Source: a virus. From it: a DNA stretch of 42,647 bases. The notes beneath the pieces were generated by a model. The model was not told the origin of the DNA. It saw only the letters and a list, made by a program, of their open reading frames with translations, and did not search any database. Location of the stretch: IMG/VR virus record IMGVR_UViG_3300017720_000016, positions 1 to 42,647 of that record. One strand, 5' to 3'. The position numbers were made by a program, and so were the translations under genes. Positions 6,652 to 23,053 of the stretch are shown in pieces; position 1 is the first letter of the stretch; the number at the start of each line of letters is the position of its first letter.

Positions 6652-6948
6652 TTATTTTCTATTTAAATGTTCAAATGGACTCCCTTTAAAGAAAGGTCCC
6701 TCTGCCATTAACTTTATCTGTTCATTCTTTAATTTTTGCATCTGCTGCATTAATGGAATCCATATAGCTTTATCTTTTTTAAACTTCTTCATCCATAACC
6801 AATTACAGAAAGACATAAGAAATCTATCATTCCATTTTTTATTTTCAGTGTTATCTATTTTTTCAATATCATACTCAACACCTAAACATTTTTGAGTTTT
6901 TTCGTCTAAAGCTTTATATATTTTATAAGCTAATTTGTTATATTTCAT
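6652..6948 (-). CDS. hypothetical protein, 98 aa
   Basis: An unrecognised lysine/tryptophan-rich protein (MKYNKLAYKIYKALDEKTQK..., SFCNWLWMKKFKKDKAIW). I chose the ATG at 6948, which has AGAGG upstream and overlaps the stop of a 29-aa membrane peptide as ATGA. The TTG at 6966 is less likely. It is the last gene of a tightly coupled run that begins at 9712. Confidence 0.6.
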   Translation of the reverse strand: MKYNKLAYKIYKALDEKTQKCLGVEYDIEKIDNTENKKWNDRFLMSFCNWLWMKKFKKDKAIWIPLMQQMQKLKNEQIKLMAEGPFFKGSPFEHLNRK

Positions 6949-7034
6949 ACATCCTCTTTGTTCCAAAACATTAATAAAAATGTAATAAGGGTATATATTA
7001 CTGCTATTAAAATAATACTTAATAAAAAATTCAT
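6945..7034 (-). CDS. 29-aa single-pass membrane peptide
   Basis: Read by eye: MNFLLSIILIAVIYTLITFL, then LMFWNKEDV. It is one continuous hydrophobic helix with a short charged tail. It has an AGAAG ribosome site, starts in an ATGA overlap with the peptide upstream, and ends in an ATGA overlap with the 98-aa gene. The two junctions make a chance frame unlikely. Confidence 0.6.
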   Translation of the reverse strand: MNFLLSIILIAVIYTLITFLLMFWNKEDV

Positions 7035-7132
7035 CTTCTTTTATCTTTAATTATTTTTGTATGTTTTCTCCAAGCCCAAGCACTAAGAGTCCCTGACCAA
7101 CCCATTAACCAAATATAAAATTTAAGCATCAT
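7031..7132 (-). CDS. 33-aa small membrane-associated peptide
   Basis: Read by eye: MMLKFYIWLMGWSGTLSAWA, then WRKHTKIIKDKRR. A tryptophan-rich hydrophobic half is followed by a strongly basic tail, a layout seen in small inner-membrane proteins. It overlaps both neighbours by ATGA. The start could also be the second ATG (7129) or 7105. Confidence 0.55.
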   Translation of the reverse strand: MMLKFYIWLMGWSGTLSAWAWRKHTKIIKDKRR

Positions 7133-7227
7133 TTGAAATTATTTATAACATAATAAACTATTAATGAACCAATAAAAAAACATATCATACTATATGCAAA
7201 CATACCTAAACCAAAAGTGGCACTCAT
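7129..7227 (-). CDS. 32-aa single-pass membrane peptide
   Basis: Read by eye: MSATFGLGMFAYSMICFFIG, then SLIVYYVINNFK, a single hydrophobic helix. Its ATG overlaps the TGA of the overprinted 479-aa gene, and its own TGA overlaps the next start. It is the first of three consecutive tiny membrane peptides. Confidence 0.6.
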   Translation of the reverse strand: MSATFGLGMFAYSMICFFIGSLIVYYVINNFK

Positions 7228-8663
7228 TCCCAATCACTTTCTATTTCAAAAGTCATTTGATAATCATATTTAATCTCTTTAAGATAAGGTTTAATTAAGT
7301 TCCAGTCTTGAACTGTTGGATAAGAAAAACAATCATCAGATCTTAACCAATGATCAATTGTAGTTTTTTTAACAATATCAGCTGCATATAAACTTTTTTT
7401 ATCTAAATTTTTTTTTAAATAATTAATAAAATCTAATTTAGGTGGTAAGTGTGGTCTCATCTTAAATTTTTCATCATAAACATCTACTAAGTGTTGATTA
7501 TTTTTTAAATGTTCTATAGCTACATCCATGGATAATGTTTTCTGCACCGGTTGTTTAGACTGAGATCTATTTAACTTACCTTTTAATATTTTAGCTGCAT
7601 ACTTAAAACTATTGTCACCCTTATCCATTGCGGTCGGAGTCCGATAAAACTTTTTTGATGGCAAGTCCGATGATTCTTGCACATTGTGGGACGATTGCGT
7701 TTCCGAGACTTTTGATTCTGCTTGCTCTATCTTTGTCCAGTCCATAGGAAATCCCATTAGGAACTCCACAAAGGTCGGATTCAATTTGCCACCATGTTTG
7801 ATCGGTTGATTTACTTTGTTCACCACATCGTTCAACTTTGCTCCGAACTTTGTTCCAGTACCAACCCTCTCTACACTCCAACCTGATGAGTTCTGCTTCA
7901 CTGTCTCTGGTGGTGCTACTACATCCATCTGACAACTCGCTGATGGTGTTGGAAACATTTGCATGTGTGCTGTTAGATTGTGTTGAGCTGCAGCTTTCTC
8001 TCCCTTCCTTTTGATCAGTGTCTCTGCATCCTCTTGTCCCGATGCTCTCGGTGTTGGATACATCTTTACTATTTGATTCAATGGTGGCTTCTGTCCTCCT
8101 CCTGGATGAGGCTTCCTTGGATTCTTTATCTCGTTGGAGTCGAAACTTGTCGGAGTTGGAAACGATTGTTTCTTTGATCGAAGATGTTTCTCTACATCTC
8201 TCATGTCTTTTATCGGCATTCCTGTCTGTACTTGCTCTGCTAAATTTCCTGGTGGAATTGATTTCCTCCCTATTTTTTCTCTCATTGCTATTCTTTTCTG
8301 CATTGCTTCTGGACTCCGCTGCGAGATATCCATTGTGCTTGGAGTGAGCCACAATCCAGACTCTATTCCTTTGGTGCCAAGCACCGAAGCCTGAAGCTGG
8401 AATAAGGAAACATTGGACTTCGAAACCTTCACCTTCCAATTGGTCCTGCACCTGTCGGAGTACCATGCCGTCTTGGAGGTTAATAAGGCCTTGCACATTC
8501 TCCCCAATAACGAACTCTGGTTTAATTTCTTTAATGAGTCTAAACATTTCTGGCCAGAGATATCTGTTGTCGTTTGTTCCTTTTTGTTTTCCTGCAACAC
8601 TGAATGGTTGACATGGGAATCCTCCAGTAATGACATCTGCTTCGAATTCTTGTCCTTTGACAT
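7224..8663 (-). CDS. methyltransferase-overlapping protein, 479 aa (overprinted gene)
   Basis: This frame overlaps the cytosine methyltransferase gene for about 1.04 kb in another frame without a stop and continues 397 nt beyond it. It matches a phage protein pattern I recognise: repeated (F/Y)PTP-type motifs (WLTPST, FPTPTS, YPTPRA, FPTPSA, YRTPTA), then GGKLNPTFVEFLMGFPMDWT near the end of the overlap. The non-overlapping C-terminal 130 residues contain TTIDHWLRSDDCFSYPTVQDW, which also looks conserved. Its stop is coupled (ATGA) to a tiny membrane peptide. Function unknown; a partner or regulator of the methyltransferase is plausible. Confidence 0.7.
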   Translation of the reverse strand: MSKDKNSKQMSLLEDSHVNHSVLQENKKEQTTTDISGQKCLDSLKKLNQSSLLGRMCKALLTSKTAWYSDRCRTNWKVKVSKSNVSLFQLQASVLGTKGIESGLWLTPSTMDISQRSPEAMQKRIAMREKIGRKSIPPGNLAEQVQTGMPIKDMRDVEKHLRSKKQSFPTPTSFDSNEIKNPRKPHPGGGQKPPLNQIVKMYPTPRASGQEDAETLIKRKGEKAAAQHNLTAHMQMFPTPSASCQMDVVAPPETVKQNSSGWSVERVGTGTKFGAKLNDVVNKVNQPIKHGGKLNPTFVEFLMGFPMDWTKIEQAESKVSETQSSHNVQESSDLPSKKFYRTPTAMDKGDNSFKYAAKILKGKLNRSQSKQPVQKTLSMDVAIEHLKNNQHLVDVYDEKFKMRPHLPPKLDFINYLKKNLDKKSLYAADIVKKTTIDHWLRSDDCFSYPTVQDWNLIKPYLKEIKYDYQMTFEIESDWE

Positions 8664-8835
8664 TTCTTATATCTCCTTCTATTGGTATGCCTGGAAAATT
8701 TTTTTGTAAAACTCTCTGACAAAATTTATCAAACTCTACAAACTTTACTGTATCAAATATATCAGTGGAGTGAAGACCTAAACTAAAGCCTCCAATCCCA
8801 CTAAATAAATCTAATACCTTAAGCTTATTGTTCAA
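7621..8835 (-). CDS. C5-cytosine DNA methyltransferase
   Basis: A 404-aa enzyme with all core motifs: LDLFSGIGGFSLGL (residues 8-21, AdoMet binding), GGFPCQPFSVAGKQ (71-84, catalytic Cys75), GENVQGL (111-117), QRNRVWIVA (155-163) and C-terminal RIKSLGNAIVPQ. The target-recognition region between is long and serine/arginine-rich, with repeated V(A/S)(H/N)(S/T) motifs. It would methylate cytosines in phage DNA, probably to evade host restriction. The start is a TTG at 8835 with AGAG upstream. No ATG precedes motif I. Most of the gene is also read in a second frame (7224-8663). Confidence 0.9.
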   Translation of the reverse strand: MNNKLKVLDLFSGIGGFSLGLHSTDIFDTVKFVEFDKFCQRVLQKNFPGIPIEGDIRNVKGQEFEADVITGGFPCQPFSVAGKQKGTNDNRYLWPEMFRLIKEIKPEFVIGENVQGLINLQDGMVLRQVQDQLEGEGFEVQCFLIPASGFGAWHQRNRVWIVAHSKHNGYLAAESRSNAEKNSNERKNREEINSTRKFSRASTDRNADKRHERCRETSSIKETIVSNSDKFRLQRDKESKEASSRRRTEATIESNSKDVSNTESIGTRGCRDTDQKEGRESCSSTQSNSTHANVSNTISELSDGCSSTTRDSEAELIRLECREGWYWNKVRSKVERCGEQSKSTDQTWWQIESDLCGVPNGISYGLDKDRASRIKSLGNAIVPQCARIIGLAIKKVLSDSDRNG

Positions 8836-9022
8836 TTTGTTCTCTCATCTTTAAGAACTTTTGTTTTGCTATCTTAAGCATTCTATCAAATAAAGGTTCT
8901 GCTTTAATAGAGTGTATTTTGTTTCTCATCTCTCCGTTAACATATAAAGTTATGTTATTAGTTTGATGATCGAGTTCAATTGTAAAAAACTCTTTAGCTT
9001 TTATTTTTTTTGGATCCGACAT
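8825..9022 (-). CDS. hypothetical protein, 65 aa
   Basis: An unrecognised small protein: basic start (MSDPKKIKAKEFF), a predicted beta hairpin (ITLYVNGEMRNKI), then a charged helix. I chose the ATG at 9022 because GGAG precedes it. The ATG at 9034 has no ribosome site. It overlaps both neighbours and leads into the methyltransferase gene. Confidence 0.55.
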   Translation of the reverse strand: MSDPKKIKAKEFFTIELDHQTNNITLYVNGEMRNKIHSIKAEPLFDRMLKIAKQKFLKMREQIEQ

Positions 9023-9218
9023 TTGCTTCTCCATTCATAAGTTTTGTACGAAAAACTGCATTAGGTATCTTATGTTTTCTAGCTTGATGATCTATGTAAT
9101 CACTTAATATTTTAGAGATCATAGCACCAGGAGCTCTAAATTTTTCTTTACATAAACCTTTAAGTAAATCGTAATCTGTTTTTTTAATTGCAACTGATTT
9201 CCATTTATTGATGTCCAT
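8994..9218 (-). CDS. possible ribbon-helix-helix DNA-binding protein
   Basis: A 74-aa protein whose start, WKSVAIKKTDYDLLKGLCKE, then FRAPGAMISKILSDYIDHQA, has the strand-helix-turn-helix spacing of ribbon-helix-helix (CopG/Arc-like) regulators. It could be a regulator of this operon, which is inference. A strong AGAGGAGAA ribosome site precedes the ATG. Confidence 0.55.
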   Translation of the reverse strand: MDINKWKSVAIKKTDYDLLKGLCKEKFRAPGAMISKILSDYIDHQARKHKIPNAVFRTKLMNGEANVGSKKNKS

Positions 9219-10407: not shown

Positions 10408-10586
10408 GTCCTGAAAAAATAAAGTTGTTGAAAGAACTTCAAGAACTTGAAAATAAGTGGTCAGCTGATTTAATGACTAATGGTCTTTGTACAGTTGAAA
10501 TGCTTAAAACAGAAAGTGATATTAGATCTAAAAGAAATGCGATCAAGTATCAAGATGTACAAGAAAATTTAGCTGCTGTTGGTTAA
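10404..10586 (+). CDS. hypothetical helical protein, 60 aa
   Basis: Mostly helical and charged (KIKLLKELQELENKWSADLM). It has GAGGAACTAAA before the ATG and an ATGA overlap with the upstream gene. Its TAA overlaps the stop codon of the convergent LAGLIDADG gene within a TTAA palindrome. No family is recognised. Confidence 0.55.
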   Translation: MSPEKIKLLKELQELENKWSADLMTNGLCTVEMLKTESDIRSKRNAIKYQDVQENLAAVG

Positions 10587-11011
10587 TTTTTCTTAAGTTT
10601 TAAAAAAGGAAACTTTTTACTTAGGGCATCTGTCGGCTTTTTAAACTCATAATGATTTATAATTTTAAATAACTTTTCTCTTTTAGCTACAGCATAAGGT
10701 AAAAATAATTTAGCAAGATGTAGTGCTTTTTGGTGAGAACATCTCCATCTCCATTGATCTTTCTTTCCCATTGATCCCTTACCAATCCCTTTAAAATGTA
10801 TTGAACCTACTTGGACAATATCGTAAAAATTTTTAATACAATCTAAATCTGTCATAGCTATTTCCATAGCTACATTCCATTTTAAATAAACTTTACCATT
10901 TTGTTTTTTACATTTATATTGTGCGTAATTTACGTTTCCTTCACCATCAAATAGTCCAGCTGCATATCCAATTAAATCTTGATTGTTATGTGGTTTATTA
11001 TTATTTTGCAT
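10583..11011 (-). CDS. LAGLIDADG homing endonuclease-like protein
   Basis: A 142-aa protein with one LAGLIDADG-type motif, GYAAGLFDGEGNV (about residues 15-27), followed by a basic region (KKDQWRWRCSHQKALHLA) typical of single-motif enzymes that work as dimers. Such enzymes cut a specific DNA site to spread themselves. It starts at 11011 (GGGGAG before ATG), inside the last codons of the DNA polymerase gene. It would be free-standing rather than in an intron. It could have been recruited for another role. Confidence 0.75.
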   Translation of the reverse strand: MQNNNKPHNNQDLIGYAAGLFDGEGNVNYAQYKCKKQNGKVYLKWNVAMEIAMTDLDCIKNFYDIVQVGSIHFKGIGKGSMGKKDQWRWRCSHQKALHLAKLFLPYAVAKREKLFKIINHYEFKKPTDALSKKFPFLKLKKN

Positions 11012-12875
11012 CTCCCCAACTCTTCCCAAGACCAAACTCAACTACACTTGGAACTTTAAATTCTATTGAACTTTGCATTATTTTTTGAATTTCTTTTGCA
11101 TGAGATTCATCTTTAATATTAAAACATAATTCATCATGTATTTGCAACATAGGTAAATGACCAGCACTATAACAATCTAACATTGATTGCTTTGTTTGAT
11201 CTGCAGAAGATCCTTGAATTAATCTATTTAAAGCTTTGTAAGTATAAGCTCTTTTAATATTGTCCTTACCATACTTAGCAACTGCATCCTCATATTTTTC
11301 TGCTACATGCAAACCAAAGTCTCTAGTTTCCCACATATCAAATCTACATTTTCTACCTTTTTTAGTTCTTATAACTCCCTTTTCATCAGCTGCATATTTA
11401 CATCTGTCTGATAATTTTTTTACAAAAGGAACTTTTTTATTATATTTAATAATTAATTCATTAGCCTCATCTTTGGTGACACCCAATGAGTTAGCTAACT
11501 TATTCTTACCCATTCCATACATCAAACCCAGACCAATTGTTTTTGCTTGAGTTCTTTCAATACCAACAAGGTCGGCAACAGTTTGATGAAAGTCTGCACT
11601 TGCATTTTGATAAGCCTCTACTAATTCATTAGAACCCTCATACCCATCTCCGATAGATGCTGCATAGTGTACTGTCATTCTTGGCTCCTGTTGTGAATAA
11701 TCAAAACTACCCCACTTAAAACCCTCTTCTGGTATAAATAAACTACGTATTTTGGGACCAAAGTCTTTGTTTCTGGCTGGGACTTGTTGTAGATTTGGAT
11801 TACTCATTGAGAGTCTACCAGATACAGTGCCTCCATTGTCTCCTCTTAATTGATTAATCTCTCCATGAATTCTTCCATTGATTTGATACTTCATGATAGA
11901 AGATAAAAAAGTTCCGTGAAATTTATTTACTTCTCTTGCACTTACAATTAGTTGTGCTATTTTGTTTTTATTATTAATTAACCAATTTTGTGTAAAGGAA
12001 GGTTCTTTTGTTTTCTCAGTTCGCGGGTATTCTAATTTCAATTTGTCAAAAGCTTTGGCAATCTGGCGGGGTGCCCAAATATCTATTTCTAGTCCTGTTT
12101 CTTTCTGTATATCCGATAGTATTACTTTTTCTTGGAGCTTCATTTCTTTTTGTAGTTCTGCAGCTTTTTCCACTTGCACTCTCACACCTCGTTGACGCAT
12201 CTTTATTAATATCGGAAGCAGTTGCTGCTCCATTTCCCATACAGTAGTTAAGCTCTGTTTTACTATTTCATTTTTAAATCTTTGCCATAATTTTAAAGTA
12301 AGCTCTGCATCTTGTTCAGCATAATAACCAACATGCTCTGCCGGTAGTTTCCACATTTCTGCTTTTGGATCTATACCATGTGCTGCTGCAGCTTCTCTTA
12401 ATTCTGTTTCTGCTTTTATTTCATTAAGATAATCTACTGATAATGTATTTAAAGAATAAGAAAATCTATTCTCATCAATCAATGCAGCTGCAATCATTGT
12501 GTCAACTATAGGTCCGTGAACCTTGATACCAGATGCTTCTAACCAACCTACATCATATTGTGCATTGTGAAAAATTTTTGTACTCGGTAAAGCACAAATG
12601 TCTTTCATATATTTTTTTACTTGTTCAGGTATCATGTTACCCCCACCTAGATGGCCAAAAGGAAAATATCCTTTCCATCCCTCAACGGCTACTGCAAACC
12701 CTACTATCTCTCCTTTGCCCAAAGCCCAACCAGCTCCAAGTCTTTCATTAATGCCATCATCTCTAGTTTCTAAATCAATTGCTATTTCCTTATACTGAGA
12801 CAAGTCCTTATATTCACTAGGTGTATTCCACATAGATTTTTTAAAAGTTAAAGTTAATTGTAATCCGTTACTCAT
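11001..12875 (-). CDS. polA: family A DNA polymerase with 3'-5' exonuclease
   Basis: A 624-aa replicative polymerase. Exonuclease motifs: AIDLETRD (D34, E36), FHNAQYDVGWL (D108) and YAEQDAELT (D189). Polymerase motifs: FDYSQQEPRM (motif A, D392), RTQAKTIGLGLMYGMG (motif B, K445, Y453) and LQIHDELCF (motif C, H580-D581-E582). There is no 5'-3' exonuclease domain. The residue equivalent to E. coli Phe762 is Leu449, a variant reported as common in marine viruses. Motif A has Gln-Glu-Pro where E. coli has Ile-Glu-Leu. The gene start overlaps the Dam-like gene by 8 nt. Confidence 0.95.
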   Translation of the reverse strand: MSNGLQLTLTFKKSMWNTPSEYKDLSQYKEIAIDLETRDDGINERLGAGWALGKGEIVGFAVAVEGWKGYFPFGHLGGGNMIPEQVKKYMKDICALPSTKIFHNAQYDVGWLEASGIKVHGPIVDTMIAAALIDENRFSYSLNTLSVDYLNEIKAETELREAAAAHGIDPKAEMWKLPAEHVGYYAEQDAELTLKLWQRFKNEIVKQSLTTVWEMEQQLLPILIKMRQRGVRVQVEKAAELQKEMKLQEKVILSDIQKETGLEIDIWAPRQIAKAFDKLKLEYPRTEKTKEPSFTQNWLINNKNKIAQLIVSAREVNKFHGTFLSSIMKYQINGRIHGEINQLRGDNGGTVSGRLSMSNPNLQQVPARNKDFGPKIRSLFIPEEGFKWGSFDYSQQEPRMTVHYAASIGDGYEGSNELVEAYQNASADFHQTVADLVGIERTQAKTIGLGLMYGMGKNKLANSLGVTKDEANELIIKYNKKVPFVKKLSDRCKYAADEKGVIRTKKGRKCRFDMWETRDFGLHVAEKYEDAVAKYGKDNIKRAYTYKALNRLIQGSSADQTKQSMLDCYSAGHLPMLQIHDELCFNIKDESHAKEIQKIMQSSIEFKVPSVVEFGLGKSWGDAK

Positions 12876-13356
12876 TTCTAAATATCACTATCATTAATGG
12901 TTTTATGTAAGCTATCTTATTTGGGTCGTCCTCTGTTCCATCATCATGACCAAACCTAAAACCTTTAACTGGCTTTTTTAAAAATCTTATTTCACAATTA
13001 GGATTCTTATAAATAAAATCATGAAAGTATTTAGTATGTGTGGATGATGGTAATAAAAAAACACCAGTAAAGTTTTTTGTATTGTATGCTTTTTCAACAA
13101 ATTTACCAATCTTTCCATCGAATAAAGGATGGATGTAAGCAACTTCTCCAGACCAATCTTTAGTCAAACAATCATCATCAATTGTATAATATCTTGGTAG
13201 TAAATGATTATTATGTGATGCACAACAATCAATCGTAAAATCAAACTCTTCTGTTAAATCTGACCATATATCTTTAGGTGTCCTAAGATATTTCATTATT
13301 TTAGAACAAGTAAAACTTAAGTTTGTCTTTTCATGTTTTAATTTTTTATTAATCAT
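12868..13356 (-). CDS. Dam-like N6-adenine methyltransferase homologue, catalytic motif altered
   Basis: The 162-aa protein follows the phage Dam family layout: YLRTPKDIWSDLTEEFDF (23-40), TIDCCASHNN (41-50), RYYTIDDDCLTKDWSGEVAY (55-74) and a C-terminal FRFG...LMIVIF. Where the family has the catalytic NPPY, this protein has HPLF (residues 76-79, codons CAT CCT TTA TTC), so methyl transfer is probably lost. It may be a DNA-binding relic or have another function. A start at 13296 is possible but would leave out 20 residues. Confidence 0.7.
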   Translation of the reverse strand: MINKKLKHEKTNLSFTCSKIMKYLRTPKDIWSDLTEEFDFTIDCCASHNNHLLPRYYTIDDDCLTKDWSGEVAYIHPLFDGKIGKFVEKAYNTKNFTGVFLLPSSTHTKYFHDFIYKNPNCEIRFLKKPVKGFRFGHDDGTEDDPNKIAYIKPLMIVIFRNE

Positions 13357-18348: not shown

Positions 18349-19755
18349 GTGTATAATTATAAAACAAAACCATTCAAACATCAAAGACAATCATTAATTG
18401 AAGGAGCCAAGCCTTATAACTTTGCTTATTTTATGGAGATGGGAACTGGTAAGACTAAAGTTGCTATTGATAATGCAGCTTATTTATATCAAGAACAAAG
18501 AATTGATTTTGCATTTGTGATCGCACCTAATTCTGTTTATCAAAATTGGAAAAAAGAAATTGATTTCCATTGTCCAGAGGAAACTAATATTTACATTTGG
18601 AAAGTAACCAAAGATAAAACATTTAAATTAGACCCAAAGAAACTTACATTTATATTAATGAATGTAGAGGCACTATCTCATGCATCAGGTAAAAAATGGC
18701 TTGAATATAAATTATTGAAACATGGTATGAGAAGCATGATTATACTTGATGAAAGCACCTCTATCAAAAATCTAAAAGCATCTAGATCTAAGGCTATTAT
18801 AAAACTAGGTCAATTAGCTAGATATAAAAGAATACTAACTGGTTCTCCTATTACAAAATCCCCATTAGATTTATTTTCTCAATGTGCTTTTTTAGATAAG
18901 GCATTATTAGGTTATGATAATTTCACTGTCTTCAAAGCTAAATATGCAGTAATGTATAGTATTGAAAGAGGCGGTTATAATATTCAAATTCCTAAATATT
19001 ATATTAATCTTGAAGAGTTAGAATATAAATTAAAAAACTTTTCTTATAGGGTTAGAAAAAAAGATTGTTTGGATTTACCAGAGAAGATGTATGTGCAAAG
19101 ATATGTAGATATGTCAGAAGAGCAAAAGCTAGCTTATGAAAGATTAAAAATTAATGCTTTAATGATAATGAAAGATGAAGAGGTATCTTACAATAATAAA
19201 CTTACTGAACTACTAAAGCTTCAACAAGTAGCTAATGGTTTTGTAAAAACTAATGATGGTAATATTGTAGATTTTAAGACTAATGCAAAACTACAAGAAT
19301 TAATGAGAATATTAGAAGAGACTGAAGATAAATGCATAATATGGGCAAACTATGTACATAACATACAAAACATTAAAAAAAAATTAGCAGAAACATACGG
19401 AGTTGATTCTGTAGTATCTATATATGGCCAGGACTCAGTTGAGTCTCGAAATCAATCAGTAGAAAAATTCCAAAATAAAGATGAGTGTAGATTCTTAGTT
19501 GGTAATCCCACAGTTGGTGGATATGGTTTAACGTTAACTGCTGCTAAATATGTAATTTATTTTAGTAATTCTTATAACTTAGAAGTCAGACAACAAAGTG
19601 AAGATAGGGCTCATAGAATAGGACAGAAGTCTCAAGTCACTTATATTGATATAATCTGTAGAGATACTATTGATCAAATGGTATTACATAATTTAGAAAA
19701 TAAAATTGAATTATCTGCTAAGACTCTTGGGGAACAGGTTCAGAAGTGGCTTTAG
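18349..19755 (+). CDS. SNF2-type superfamily 2 helicase
   Basis: A 468-aa ATPase with FKHQRQSL (Q motif), MEMGTGKTKVA (motif I, 30-40), IILDESTSIKN (motif II, DES at 134-136), RILTGSP (motif III), GNPTVGGYGLTLTAA (motif V) and RQQSEDRAHRIGQ (motif VI). SNF2-like phage proteins move along double-stranded DNA and probably clear proteins or help recombination. The start is GTG with no ribosome site. It is opposite in orientation to its neighbours and its 3' end overlaps the exonuclease gene by 38 nt. Confidence 0.92.
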   Translation: MYNYKTKPFKHQRQSLIEGAKPYNFAYFMEMGTGKTKVAIDNAAYLYQEQRIDFAFVIAPNSVYQNWKKEIDFHCPEETNIYIWKVTKDKTFKLDPKKLTFILMNVEALSHASGKKWLEYKLLKHGMRSMIILDESTSIKNLKASRSKAIIKLGQLARYKRILTGSPITKSPLDLFSQCAFLDKALLGYDNFTVFKAKYAVMYSIERGGYNIQIPKYYINLEELEYKLKNFSYRVRKKDCLDLPEKMYVQRYVDMSEEQKLAYERLKINALMIMKDEEVSYNNKLTELLKLQQVANGFVKTNDGNIVDFKTNAKLQELMRILEETEDKCIIWANYVHNIQNIKKKLAETYGVDSVVSIYGQDSVESRNQSVEKFQNKDECRFLVGNPTVGGYGLTLTAAKYVIYFSNSYNLEVRQQSEDRAHRIGQKSQVTYIDIICRDTIDQMVLHNLENKIELSAKTLGEQVQKWL

Positions 19756-20466: not shown

Positions 20467-20679
20467 TTAGAATACTTTAAATAAAAGAGCAACTATTATT
20501 CCAATCATTGAAGTCATTAAAAAGGCAGTAGAAGATATAAGAATTTTTTCTATTCTATGTATATCATTATGCAGATCTTTGATTTGTTTATTAGTTTGTT
20601 CTTGCATGATTCTGCACAACTTCTCGTGGTCATCAATTCTTTGATGAGCTAGATTATCTTTAGAAGTTTTTCTTGGCAC
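20467..20679 (-). CDS. small coiled-coil protein with C-terminal membrane helix
   Basis: A 70-aa protein with a charged coiled-coil half (QEQTNKQIKDLHNDIHRIEK) and one C-terminal membrane segment (SSTAFLMTSMIGIIVALLF). This layout resembles the XhlA-type lysis accessory proteins, so a role with a holin is possible. It begins with GTG after GGTGGGA and overlaps the end of the 797-aa virion gene. Confidence 0.55.
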   Translation of the reverse strand: MPRKTSKDNLAHQRIDDHEKLCRIMQEQTNKQIKDLHNDIHRIEKILISSTAFLMTSMIGIIVALLFKVF

Positions 20680-23053
20680 TTACAATCCCACCTTTGTTAA
20701 AAAGATTAAGAGCTTGAGCTAATTGTGGATTAGAACCAGTAGTTGAACCTATTGGTGAACTTTCTTGATTAATAACAGGAAAATTACTAGGTTGTAATTC
20801 TGGTAATGGAGCTTGTAATTCACTTAAATTAACACCACCTTCTTTAACGGCTTGTTCATATATTTTTAATTGTGCTAAAGATTTATCTCTTTCCTCTTCA
20901 GGTATGTATCCATCACTAAACATCCTACCAATAAGCTGTTTCATTGCTGCTGCAGATTTAGGTGCACTTGGTGCTTTGTATGAATCAAAAATCAATTTTT
21001 GAAATTTAGGATTTAATAATCCTTTAGCTAAAAAAAACGGAGTAGCTAAAATAGTAACAGCTGGTAATATATTTCCAGTGGCAAGTCCAAAACCAGCTCC
21101 ACCCAATTGTAATAATTGTCCAGCTGCACCTGCTTGTTTTAATTGAATAAATACACCACCAGGTAGACCTTTCATTCTTGTTAGATCACCTTGTGCAAAA
21201 GCTAAAGTTTCAATTACATTATTTACTTTCTTCAATTCATCTTTAGAAAATATTTTTGCCATACTTAACGATTGTTTTTCTAAACGAGCTGCAAATTTTT
21301 TTGCATCAATAATATTACCAAATTGTGGATCAATAGTTTTTGATGATTCTAATGCTTGATTTAAAAACTGACCTTTGAATGAAGTAAGTAAATCATTTGA
21401 TTGTTTGGTAGTAATTTGTTTCAATTGACCTGTTTCATCAATATACTTTGTAAACTTTGGAAGATCTTTTATTTCATCTACAACCTTTCCAACTAAATCT
21501 GATTTATCCCCAGTTTTAAAAACTGCAGAAAAAATGTCACCAATATCTCTTGTATTACCCACACCTTTAGCTAATACAGCTTGTAAACTTCCTCTTTGAA
21601 AAATATCCATTCCACCTTCATAAAATTCATTTGCTTCTTGTAAAAATTTACCAGCTTGTGGGCTTAATCCACTTTTCGTTAAAGAATCTGGACTTAACAA
21701 TTCATCAAATTTATTAACAATCTTTGTAATTCCACCAATACCATCTGTATTACCGTCACGTATAAATTTTTGTTTTAAAGCAGCTGCTTGTGCTCTTAAT
21801 TTACCAGCTTGTGCATAAGCTAATTTACCCCCTGCTTCAACAGTTGCAGTGTCTAATTTTCTAGCTAAACTTCCTAAAAAAGGTGTTAGTGGATCAAGTT
21901 CTGCCAAACCTAAATTAGCTTGTCTTTGTAGTTGTTGCACAATTTCTTGTAAGCCACCTTTTCCTTCAATAGGAAGAGTTGGCATAAATTTTGTATTTTT
22001 ACCAGACGCACTTATTAAAGCATCATCTACTCTTTTATACATAGCATCTTTAGCAGCTTTGAACATACTTTCTGCATCAGTTATTGTTTTAAAAAAATAA
22101 TTACCAAGTTGTTCTTTATCTACAACTTTTACTCCATCTGCAGTAATTTGTTGAAAAGAATTTACAATATCATCGGAAACAAATTTTCCCATAGCTTGTG
22201 CAGAACCTCTTCTTCTTTCTAAAGCACCACCACCGAACAAAGCTTTTGATACAACATTTTCAATAATGTTTAATGTTCTATTTTCTGTTTTAACACCAGG
22301 TGTCAAACCTTTTTGCATTTCTTGTGCAGTGTCTTTTAAACTTTGAAATTTTGACTCTGGAATATTATTTTCTTTCATAAATTTTTTGATTGCTTCATCA
22401 TCTACAACTTTTTTAGTTTGTAGTTCTACTTGTTCTTTTATAGGTCTTATTGCACCATCAGTAGTTTTTGCTATAAATTTTGCAGCTTCTTTTCCGTACA
22501 AAATTTCATTTGCTTTCATTCTTAATGTAGTTTCTGCTTCATTAGCACCCTCTAACAATTGTGCATATGCTTTTGGTTTACCTAAAATTTTAGAAACATA
22601 TTGACCTCCTTTTATAACAAGTGGTCCACCAATTAATTCTGCTGCTGCACCTTCACTGGCTGCTCTTACTACTTCATTAACAACATTATCTTTTGGATCA
22701 AATGTTTGAGAAACTACAGCTCCTGCTCCACCCCCTGCTGCAGCTCCTGCAGAAGTTTTTAGTAATCTATTTATGAAAGGTTTTGATAGCATTCCTACCC
22801 TCCCTGCAATACCAGGTAAATATTTTGCTCCAGTGCTCAAAGCACCTACAATAGAAAGACCAGCTTCAGTAAGTAATCTTCCCATAGATGGACTTTGCAT
22901 ATATTCTTCTGTTGCTTCATCAGCAACACTGTCTCCTACTAAATTTTGATTTATTTCAGTTAATGCATCTTTTATTTTTGCAGCTTCATCAGATGTTGGT
23001 TTGTCACCATCAATGTTTACTACTCCAAGACCTTTGACATTAATTTGTCCCAT
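20660..23053 (-). CDS. large probable internal virion (ejection) protein
   Basis: A 797-aa protein with no enzyme motif that I recognise. It has alanine/glycine-rich hydrophobic stretches (KTSAGAAAGGGAGAVVSQ, about residues 99-116, and GAAGQLLQLGGAGFGLA near the C-terminus) separated by long charged helices. This is typical of phage proteins packed inside the capsid and ejected to form a channel through the envelope. It closes the morphogenesis run in the direction of transcription. AAAGGA precedes the ATG. Confidence 0.55.
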   Translation of the reverse strand: MGQINVKGLGVVNIDGDKPTSDEAAKIKDALTEINQNLVGDSVADEATEEYMQSPSMGRLLTEAGLSIVGALSTGAKYLPGIAGRVGMLSKPFINRLLKTSAGAAAGGGAGAVVSQTFDPKDNVVNEVVRAASEGAAAELIGGPLVIKGGQYVSKILGKPKAYAQLLEGANEAETTLRMKANEILYGKEAAKFIAKTTDGAIRPIKEQVELQTKKVVDDEAIKKFMKENNIPESKFQSLKDTAQEMQKGLTPGVKTENRTLNIIENVVSKALFGGGALERRRGSAQAMGKFVSDDIVNSFQQITADGVKVVDKEQLGNYFFKTITDAESMFKAAKDAMYKRVDDALISASGKNTKFMPTLPIEGKGGLQEIVQQLQRQANLGLAELDPLTPFLGSLARKLDTATVEAGGKLAYAQAGKLRAQAAALKQKFIRDGNTDGIGGITKIVNKFDELLSPDSLTKSGLSPQAGKFLQEANEFYEGGMDIFQRGSLQAVLAKGVGNTRDIGDIFSAVFKTGDKSDLVGKVVDEIKDLPKFTKYIDETGQLKQITTKQSNDLLTSFKGQFLNQALESSKTIDPQFGNIIDAKKFAARLEKQSLSMAKIFSKDELKKVNNVIETLAFAQGDLTRMKGLPGGVFIQLKQAGAAGQLLQLGGAGFGLATGNILPAVTILATPFFLAKGLLNPKFQKLIFDSYKAPSAPKSAAAMKQLIGRMFSDGYIPEEERDKSLAQLKIYEQAVKEGGVNLSELQAPLPELQPSNFPVINQESSPIGSTTGSNPQLAQALNLFNKGGIVSAKKNF

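Follow-up and report, generated by a model that had tools for sequence, protein, structure and literature searches.

The locus described here very probably encodes a two-polypeptide C5 cytosine methyltransferase, in which a catalytic subunit and a specificity subunit overprinted on its gene work together in the manner of M.EcoHK31I. It lies in a 42,647-base IMG/VR virus record (the window), which also carries a phage DNA polymerase, helicase, primase and virion genes. Both chains are encoded on the minus strand. ORF1 (alpha, 7621..8835, 404 aa, TTG start) is the C5 methyltransferase catalytic subunit and matched PF00145 (E = 1.7e-54) and phrog_363 (2e-74). ORF2 (beta, 7224..8663, 479 aa), which is read in the +1 frame relative to ORF1 and matched phrog_1008 (4.9e-26), is the proposed specificity subunit, with a row of recognition cassettes and motif IX.

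Two overlapping open frames

The original prediction, made from the letters of the window, had described about 1.04 kb open in two minus-strand frames, the second of them 479 aa long, with a 397-nt extension beyond the methyltransferase and a coupled start at its end. These features were all confirmed. The dual-coded stretch common to ORF1 and ORF2 (7621..8663, minus strand) measures 1,043 nt, ORF2 runs 397 nt beyond the end of ORF1, and the ORF2 stop overlaps (ATGA) the start of a 34-aa hydrophobic ORF (7129..7233, minus strand; TTG at 7233 or ATG at 7227). An Rfam scan of 6900-9200 and a tRNA scan of the whole window gave no match.

In a test of chance occurrence, the ORF1 protein and its codon usage were kept fixed while synonymous codons were shuffled in 5,000 trials. 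The longest +1 open run observed was 347 codons, compared with a mean of 121 and a maximum of 340 in the shuffles, so the observed length was never reached; five relatives gave the same outcome as the window. Relatives were gathered with ORF1 as the seed, so that ORF2 played no part in their choice. The +1 frame was open across the entire overlap in all of these, and in 61 complete loci the overlap amounted to 263-430 uninterrupted codons. A relative of ORF2 was encoded in the +1 frame at 80 of 80 distinct loci, in agreement with the earlier impression that both frames are conserved. A similar result was obtained with a second clade, formed by 63 non-redundant relatives of the Acinetobacter phage ABMM1 enzyme, where the +1 frame was open in 62. 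The codon shuffles and the relatives together ruled out a chance open frame, which the original prediction had already judged very unlikely for a frame of such length. Stops in ORF2 beside an intact methyltransferase had been named as the finding that would speak against dual coding, and no such homologue was found in the collection. ORF2 was disrupted at one locus only (L043:2758-4420), where frameshifts, which are sequencing errors or marks of a decaying gene, break both frames at the same places; this is therefore not a case of that kind.

ORF2 is preceded by a start signal of its own. A ribosome-binding site, AAGGAG (8673..8678, minus strand), lies inside ORF1 motif III (IEGDI), 9 nt before the ORF2 ATG, and this ATG comes directly after a stop codon in the ORF2 frame. 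The AGGAG was kept before the ATG in 50 of 50 non-redundant relatives. The ORF1 peptide EGDI was written GAAGGAGAT in all 26 relatives that have it (.32 expected from codon usage), and the peptide EED[IV] was written GAGGAGGAT in 24 of 24 (.10 expected). The AGGAG was thus retained through two different amino-acid solutions of ORF1, which amounts to a forced codon choice. We considered whether programmed frameshifting might join both frames into one chain, given that fused single-chain relatives exist, and regard this as very unlikely, because ORF2 has the conserved start signal just described and because a second frameshift would be needed to get from ORF2 to motif X. The conservation of AGGAG through two ORF1 peptides therefore favours independent initiation.

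Constraint on the two frames

The original prediction had proposed a test for purifying selection in both frames, which we ran by codon position and by substitution class. Codon positions were compared between 50 non-redundant relatives. The difference rates at ORF1 positions 1/2/3 were.136/.087/.365 in the non-overlapping start,.098/.039/.155 in the catalytic overlap,.390/.262/.304 in the cassette region and.309/.181/.170 at residues 341-360. The third position of ORF1 thus differed in 36.5% of comparisons before the ORF2 start and in 15.5% in the catalytic overlap. Within the cassette region the fastest was position 1 of ORF1 (position 3 of ORF2), and around ORF2 LNPTFVEFLMGFP ORF1 position 3 was the slowest.

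The substitution counts come from pairs with common ancestry and are not independent events; what carries the argument is how regions within one gene differ. In the cassette region, transitions silent only in ORF2 exceeded those silent only in ORF1 (.173 versus.070), and in the region before ORF2 they fell below them (.025 versus.136). ORF1-silent changes that make a stop in ORF2 took up 18 of 14,304 opportunities within the catalytic overlap versus 713 of 2,120 before the ORF2 start. The second, distant clade of ABMM1-like enzymes agreed; at residues 2-40 the values were.44 for changes silent in both frames,.11 for those silent in ORF1 only and.004 for those creating an ORF2 stop, the variable region of this clade being near saturation and hence uninformative. 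These comparisons show that purifying selection is acting in both frames and that ORF2 is the more constrained frame in the middle of the overlap.

It is highly improbable that ORF2 is untranslated and that its conservation is a shadow of ORF1 combined with stop avoidance. A frame lying over a conserved gene does gain some similarity by itself. However, ORF1-silent changes were suppressed and ORF2-silent changes enriched, the embedded ribosome-binding site was kept through two amino-acid solutions, the conservation of ORF2 equalled or exceeded that of ORF1 in close relatives, and conserved sequence continued beyond the ORF1 stop. The substitution classes ruled out a shadow of ORF1 as the source of the ORF2 similarity. 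The genuine dual-coding pair that had been predicted was thus supported by selection in both frames and by the lack of an ORF2-broken homologue.

Motif IX and the proposed recognition cassettes

ORF1 had been described as a complete C5 methyltransferase, and this did not hold. ORF1 has motifs I, III, IV, VI, VIII and X (given overall as I-VIII and X), including all of the PF00145 motifs I, IV, VI, VIII and X, and its residues 5-163 are HhaI-like. No LxP...MGFP-like block of motif IX was present in ORF1 before motif X (SLGNAIVPQ, 7684..7710, minus strand); the block sits in ORF2. The ORF2 sequence LNPTFVEFLMGFP, which the original prediction had called conserved, is indeed conserved, and its identity is the motif IX that ORF1 is without (LNPTFVEFLMGFPMDWT, 7734..7784, minus strand). 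In ORF2 it follows a row of 'YPTP' cassettes. Single-chain mycobacteriophage enzymes (IrishSherpFalk gp71 and relatives) have a single frame in which motifs I-VIII are followed by PTP cassettes, by LNPAFPEWMMGWPTGW and finally by motif X. We assign the block to motif IX because of this position: in these cassette-bearing single-chain enzymes LNPAFPEWMMGWP directly precedes motif X.

Profile-to-profile comparison aligned the ORF2 cassettes and motif IX with the C-terminal half of single-chain methyltransferases (98%, 2.9e-13), and phrog_1008, the ORF2 family, matched residues 194-390 of the single chain (1.3e-57). PHROG 1008, to which ORF2 belongs, thus covers the C-terminal half of fused enzymes as well, and its label 'DNA methyltransferase' is silent on the role of a second-frame partner. 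A motif IX profile built from single-chain relatives had its best solved-structure match, a weak one (E 0.08), at motif IX-X of 4ONJ, an entry which we take to be a plant DRM methyltransferase; the 26-residue motif IX used alone as query gave no match. The model of the single-chain enzyme aligned with M.HhaI over >400 columns, with pLDDT >90 in the motif IX-X region and <50 in the cassettes. The AlphaFold model of ORF2 alone was poor (pLDDT 57) and found no match in the PDB, so no fold is claimed for it.

The same halves are found apart in split genes. In Mycobacterium phage Catdawg, gp6 holds motifs I-VIII and gp5, in the +1 frame with a 209-nt overlap, holds a cassette, motif IX and motif X. 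The adjacent 'DNA methylase' genes of Mycobacterium phages Catdawg and Qobbit and of Streptomyces phage Vash each make up a single C5 methyltransferase that is divided behind motif VIII (split-pair loci L370:1110-2061, L371:813-1827 and L372:1290-2346); the annotated start of Vash gp33 looks too far downstream. Hybrid forms were also seen (L357, L358 and L360, from 1501), in which the methylase frame includes motifs IX and X and the PTP cassettes are in the +1 frame, and fused mycobacteriophage enzymes retain in +1 a short frame that resembles ORF2 and includes a cassette. Judged by these sequence comparisons, ORF2 is the half of the methyltransferase that ORF1 lacks. The earlier suggestion that the two proteins probably act together was supported indirectly, by the fused and split relatives.

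A real and selected ORF2 could have another function, such as inhibiting host restriction or regulating the methylase. The connection between ORF1 and ORF2 rests on sequence, ORF2 alone had no match in Pfam or a defence library, and its N-terminal third is without a known counterpart in ordinary C5 enzymes. We nevertheless consider such a function unlikely, since the C-terminal halves of single-chain and split methyltransferases have their counterpart in the middle of ORF2 and its motif IX, since ORF1 is without motif IX, and since every ORF2 relative recovered with ORF2 as the seed accompanied a methyltransferase, 44 of 44 further loci having it in the +1 frame of a methyltransferase gene. 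The N-terminal part (residues 1-104; 8352..8663, minus strand), which overlaps ORF1 motifs IV-VIII and has residues invariant in 26 relatives, is a proposed docking segment; its residues 31-100 are predicted to form a helix-helix-hairpin (pLDDT about 60-80).

The variable part of ORF2 is built of exchangeable units. Across the clade of the window, 60 complete ORF2s yielded 258 cassettes from 24 families in 40 arrangements, with 2-7 cassettes per protein. L054, for example, has the order G-O-C. The order in the window is G-J-D-C, all on the minus strand: G (WLTPSTMD..., 8163..8351), J (FPTPTSFD..., 8061..8162), D (YPTPRASG..., 7956..8060) and C (FPTPSASC..., 7797..7955). The shuffled units between motifs VIII and IX look like target-recognition units, and would as such read DNA. 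ORF1 between motifs VIII and X (7711..8340, minus strand) is mostly variable, and changes nonsynonymous in ORF1 and synonymous in ORF2 outnumber the reverse; the ORF1 sequence opposite the cassettes is best read as a linker held open to reach motif X.

The C-terminal extension of ORF2 (7227..7649, minus strand) forms a further cassette (FYRTPTAMD...) that contains an HTH-like unit (7254-7463). The core of this cassette was 43% identical over 70 aa (E 1e-16) to a staphylococcal phage N6/N4-type methyltransferase, in which the counterpart is an inserted unit at residues 192-260 of L123:1428-2567. In L332 the HTH-like unit was found before motif IX, amid other cassettes of the +1 frame. A unit common to ORF2 and an N6/N4-type enzyme hints that a recognition unit has passed between enzymes of different methylation chemistry. 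On balance we lean towards a broader proposal, namely that in a widespread type of phage enzyme DNA-sequence specificity resides entirely in an overprinted protein of interchangeable cassettes. Recombination would then have to keep two frames open, the methylase frame would be reduced to a linker, and the C-terminal cassette would be exchanged even with N6/N4-type enzymes, one recognition unit serving chemically different enzymes.

Related systems, spread and significance

Two-polypeptide C5 enzymes are already known as a kind from M.AquI and M.EcoHK31I. The small chain of M.EcoHK31I is encoded in another frame inside the gene of the large chain, and the small chain of the window likewise lies in another frame inside the large gene. 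PMC3404938, citing Lee et al. 1995, assigns motifs I-VIII and X of M.EcoHK31I to the large chain and motif IX to the small chain, and places the predicted TRD in the large subunit, not the small, which speaks against our reading. Compared by published description, the window pair has the layout of M.EcoHK31I (and M.EaeI), with a large chain lacking motif IX and a small chain carrying it. It differs from M.EcoHK31I in that its cassettes, of which there are several, are in the second frame whereas the TRD there is predicted in the large chain, and in that ORF2 extends past ORF1. M.AquI likewise pairs a catalytic chain with another chain that bears motif IX and (part of) the recognition region; its small chain holds motifs IX-X (PMC3404938), whereas the window's nested form retains it in ORF1. 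Catdawg gp6/gp5, with motif X in gp5, is closer to M.AquI than the window pair is. The C5 methyltransferases of Bacillus phages SPR, phi3T and rho11 are multispecific single chains with several exchangeable target-recognition units. The shuffled cassettes of ORF2 would be units of this sort, carried by a second, overprinted protein.

Mycobacteriophage methylases provide another example of out-of-frame coding within a C5 methylase gene, the ShiLan element, which is a mobile insertion encoding an HNH endonuclease (PMC11855218). With such out-of-frame HNH genes as precedent, ORF2 might be a homing endonuclease hidden in the methylase, but this is extremely improbable: ORF2 is present in every relative and spans most of the gene, unlike an insertion, and behaves as a conserved partner protein. 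The homing endonuclease reading was rejected when searches with ORF2 returned no endonuclease family match and no HNH match.

In our model, alpha would carry out AdoMet binding and catalysis through motifs I-VIII and X. Beta, initiated at its own ribosome-binding site within alpha, would contribute motif IX and the row of exchangeable target-recognition cassettes, and the two chains would assemble as one enzyme. Several cassettes would lead to methylation of several sequences in the phage DNA, and this methylation would probably shield the phage against restriction by the host, the role that orphan phage methyltransferases usually have. The neighbouring ORFs tested included no restriction enzyme, which sets the locus apart from the restriction-modification system of M.EcoHK31I. 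We infer, then, that alpha and beta are both produced and form a complex, that the cassettes recognise DNA and that the enzyme protects the phage.

The original prediction had looked to marine phages for homologues. The locus is indeed from a marine phage, but the arrangement is far wider, with nested forms in Paenibacillus, Acinetobacter, Lactobacillus, Salmonella, Klebsiella and Escherichia phages and in some plasmids. Cultured relatives include P. larvae phage Redbud (gp50/gp51) and Mycobacterium phage Catdawg (gp6/gp5). A scan of a genome collection with alignment A1 added one distant locus, in a Dehalococcoidales MAG. A tree of catalytic domains by architecture was weakly supported, some architectures being mislabelled owing to truncated contigs. 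One virus contig carries the nested pair twice within about 4 kb (L133:2801 and L133:6413).

Several other ORFs of the window were recorded. A Dam-type N6-adenine methyltransferase (12868-13356, minus strand; PF05869, 3.7e-15) is a second DNA methylase. A LAGLIDADG homing endonuclease-like ORF (10583-11041, minus strand; PF00961, 1.9e-5) overlaps the DNA polymerase gene (11001-12875) by 41 nt. A 468-aa ORF (18349-19755) is on the otherwise little-used plus strand, and a 797-aa ORF (20660-23053, minus strand) had no PHROG match.

No description of this phage pair was found in the literature searched. As far as that literature shows, the phage spread, the selection evidence, the second-frame recognition cassettes and the dual-frame cassette shuffling are new. 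Long same-strand dual coding with selection on both frames has seldom been documented, and the case for it is usually made from one example. The present arrangement is found repeatedly, in several phage lineages, and its fused, split and nested forms provide internal comparisons. Phage gene lists mostly show one of the two proteins at such loci, and databases label both frames 'DNA methyltransferase' or 'internal gene' without explanation. The model would account for two overlapping 'DNA methyltransferases' in phage annotations, and it predicts that such phage C5 enzymes cloned as ORF1 alone would be inactive. It also suggests a second look at the location of the recognition domain in M.EcoHK31I. 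On this model, the cassettes would form a modular set for reading methyltransferase specificities.
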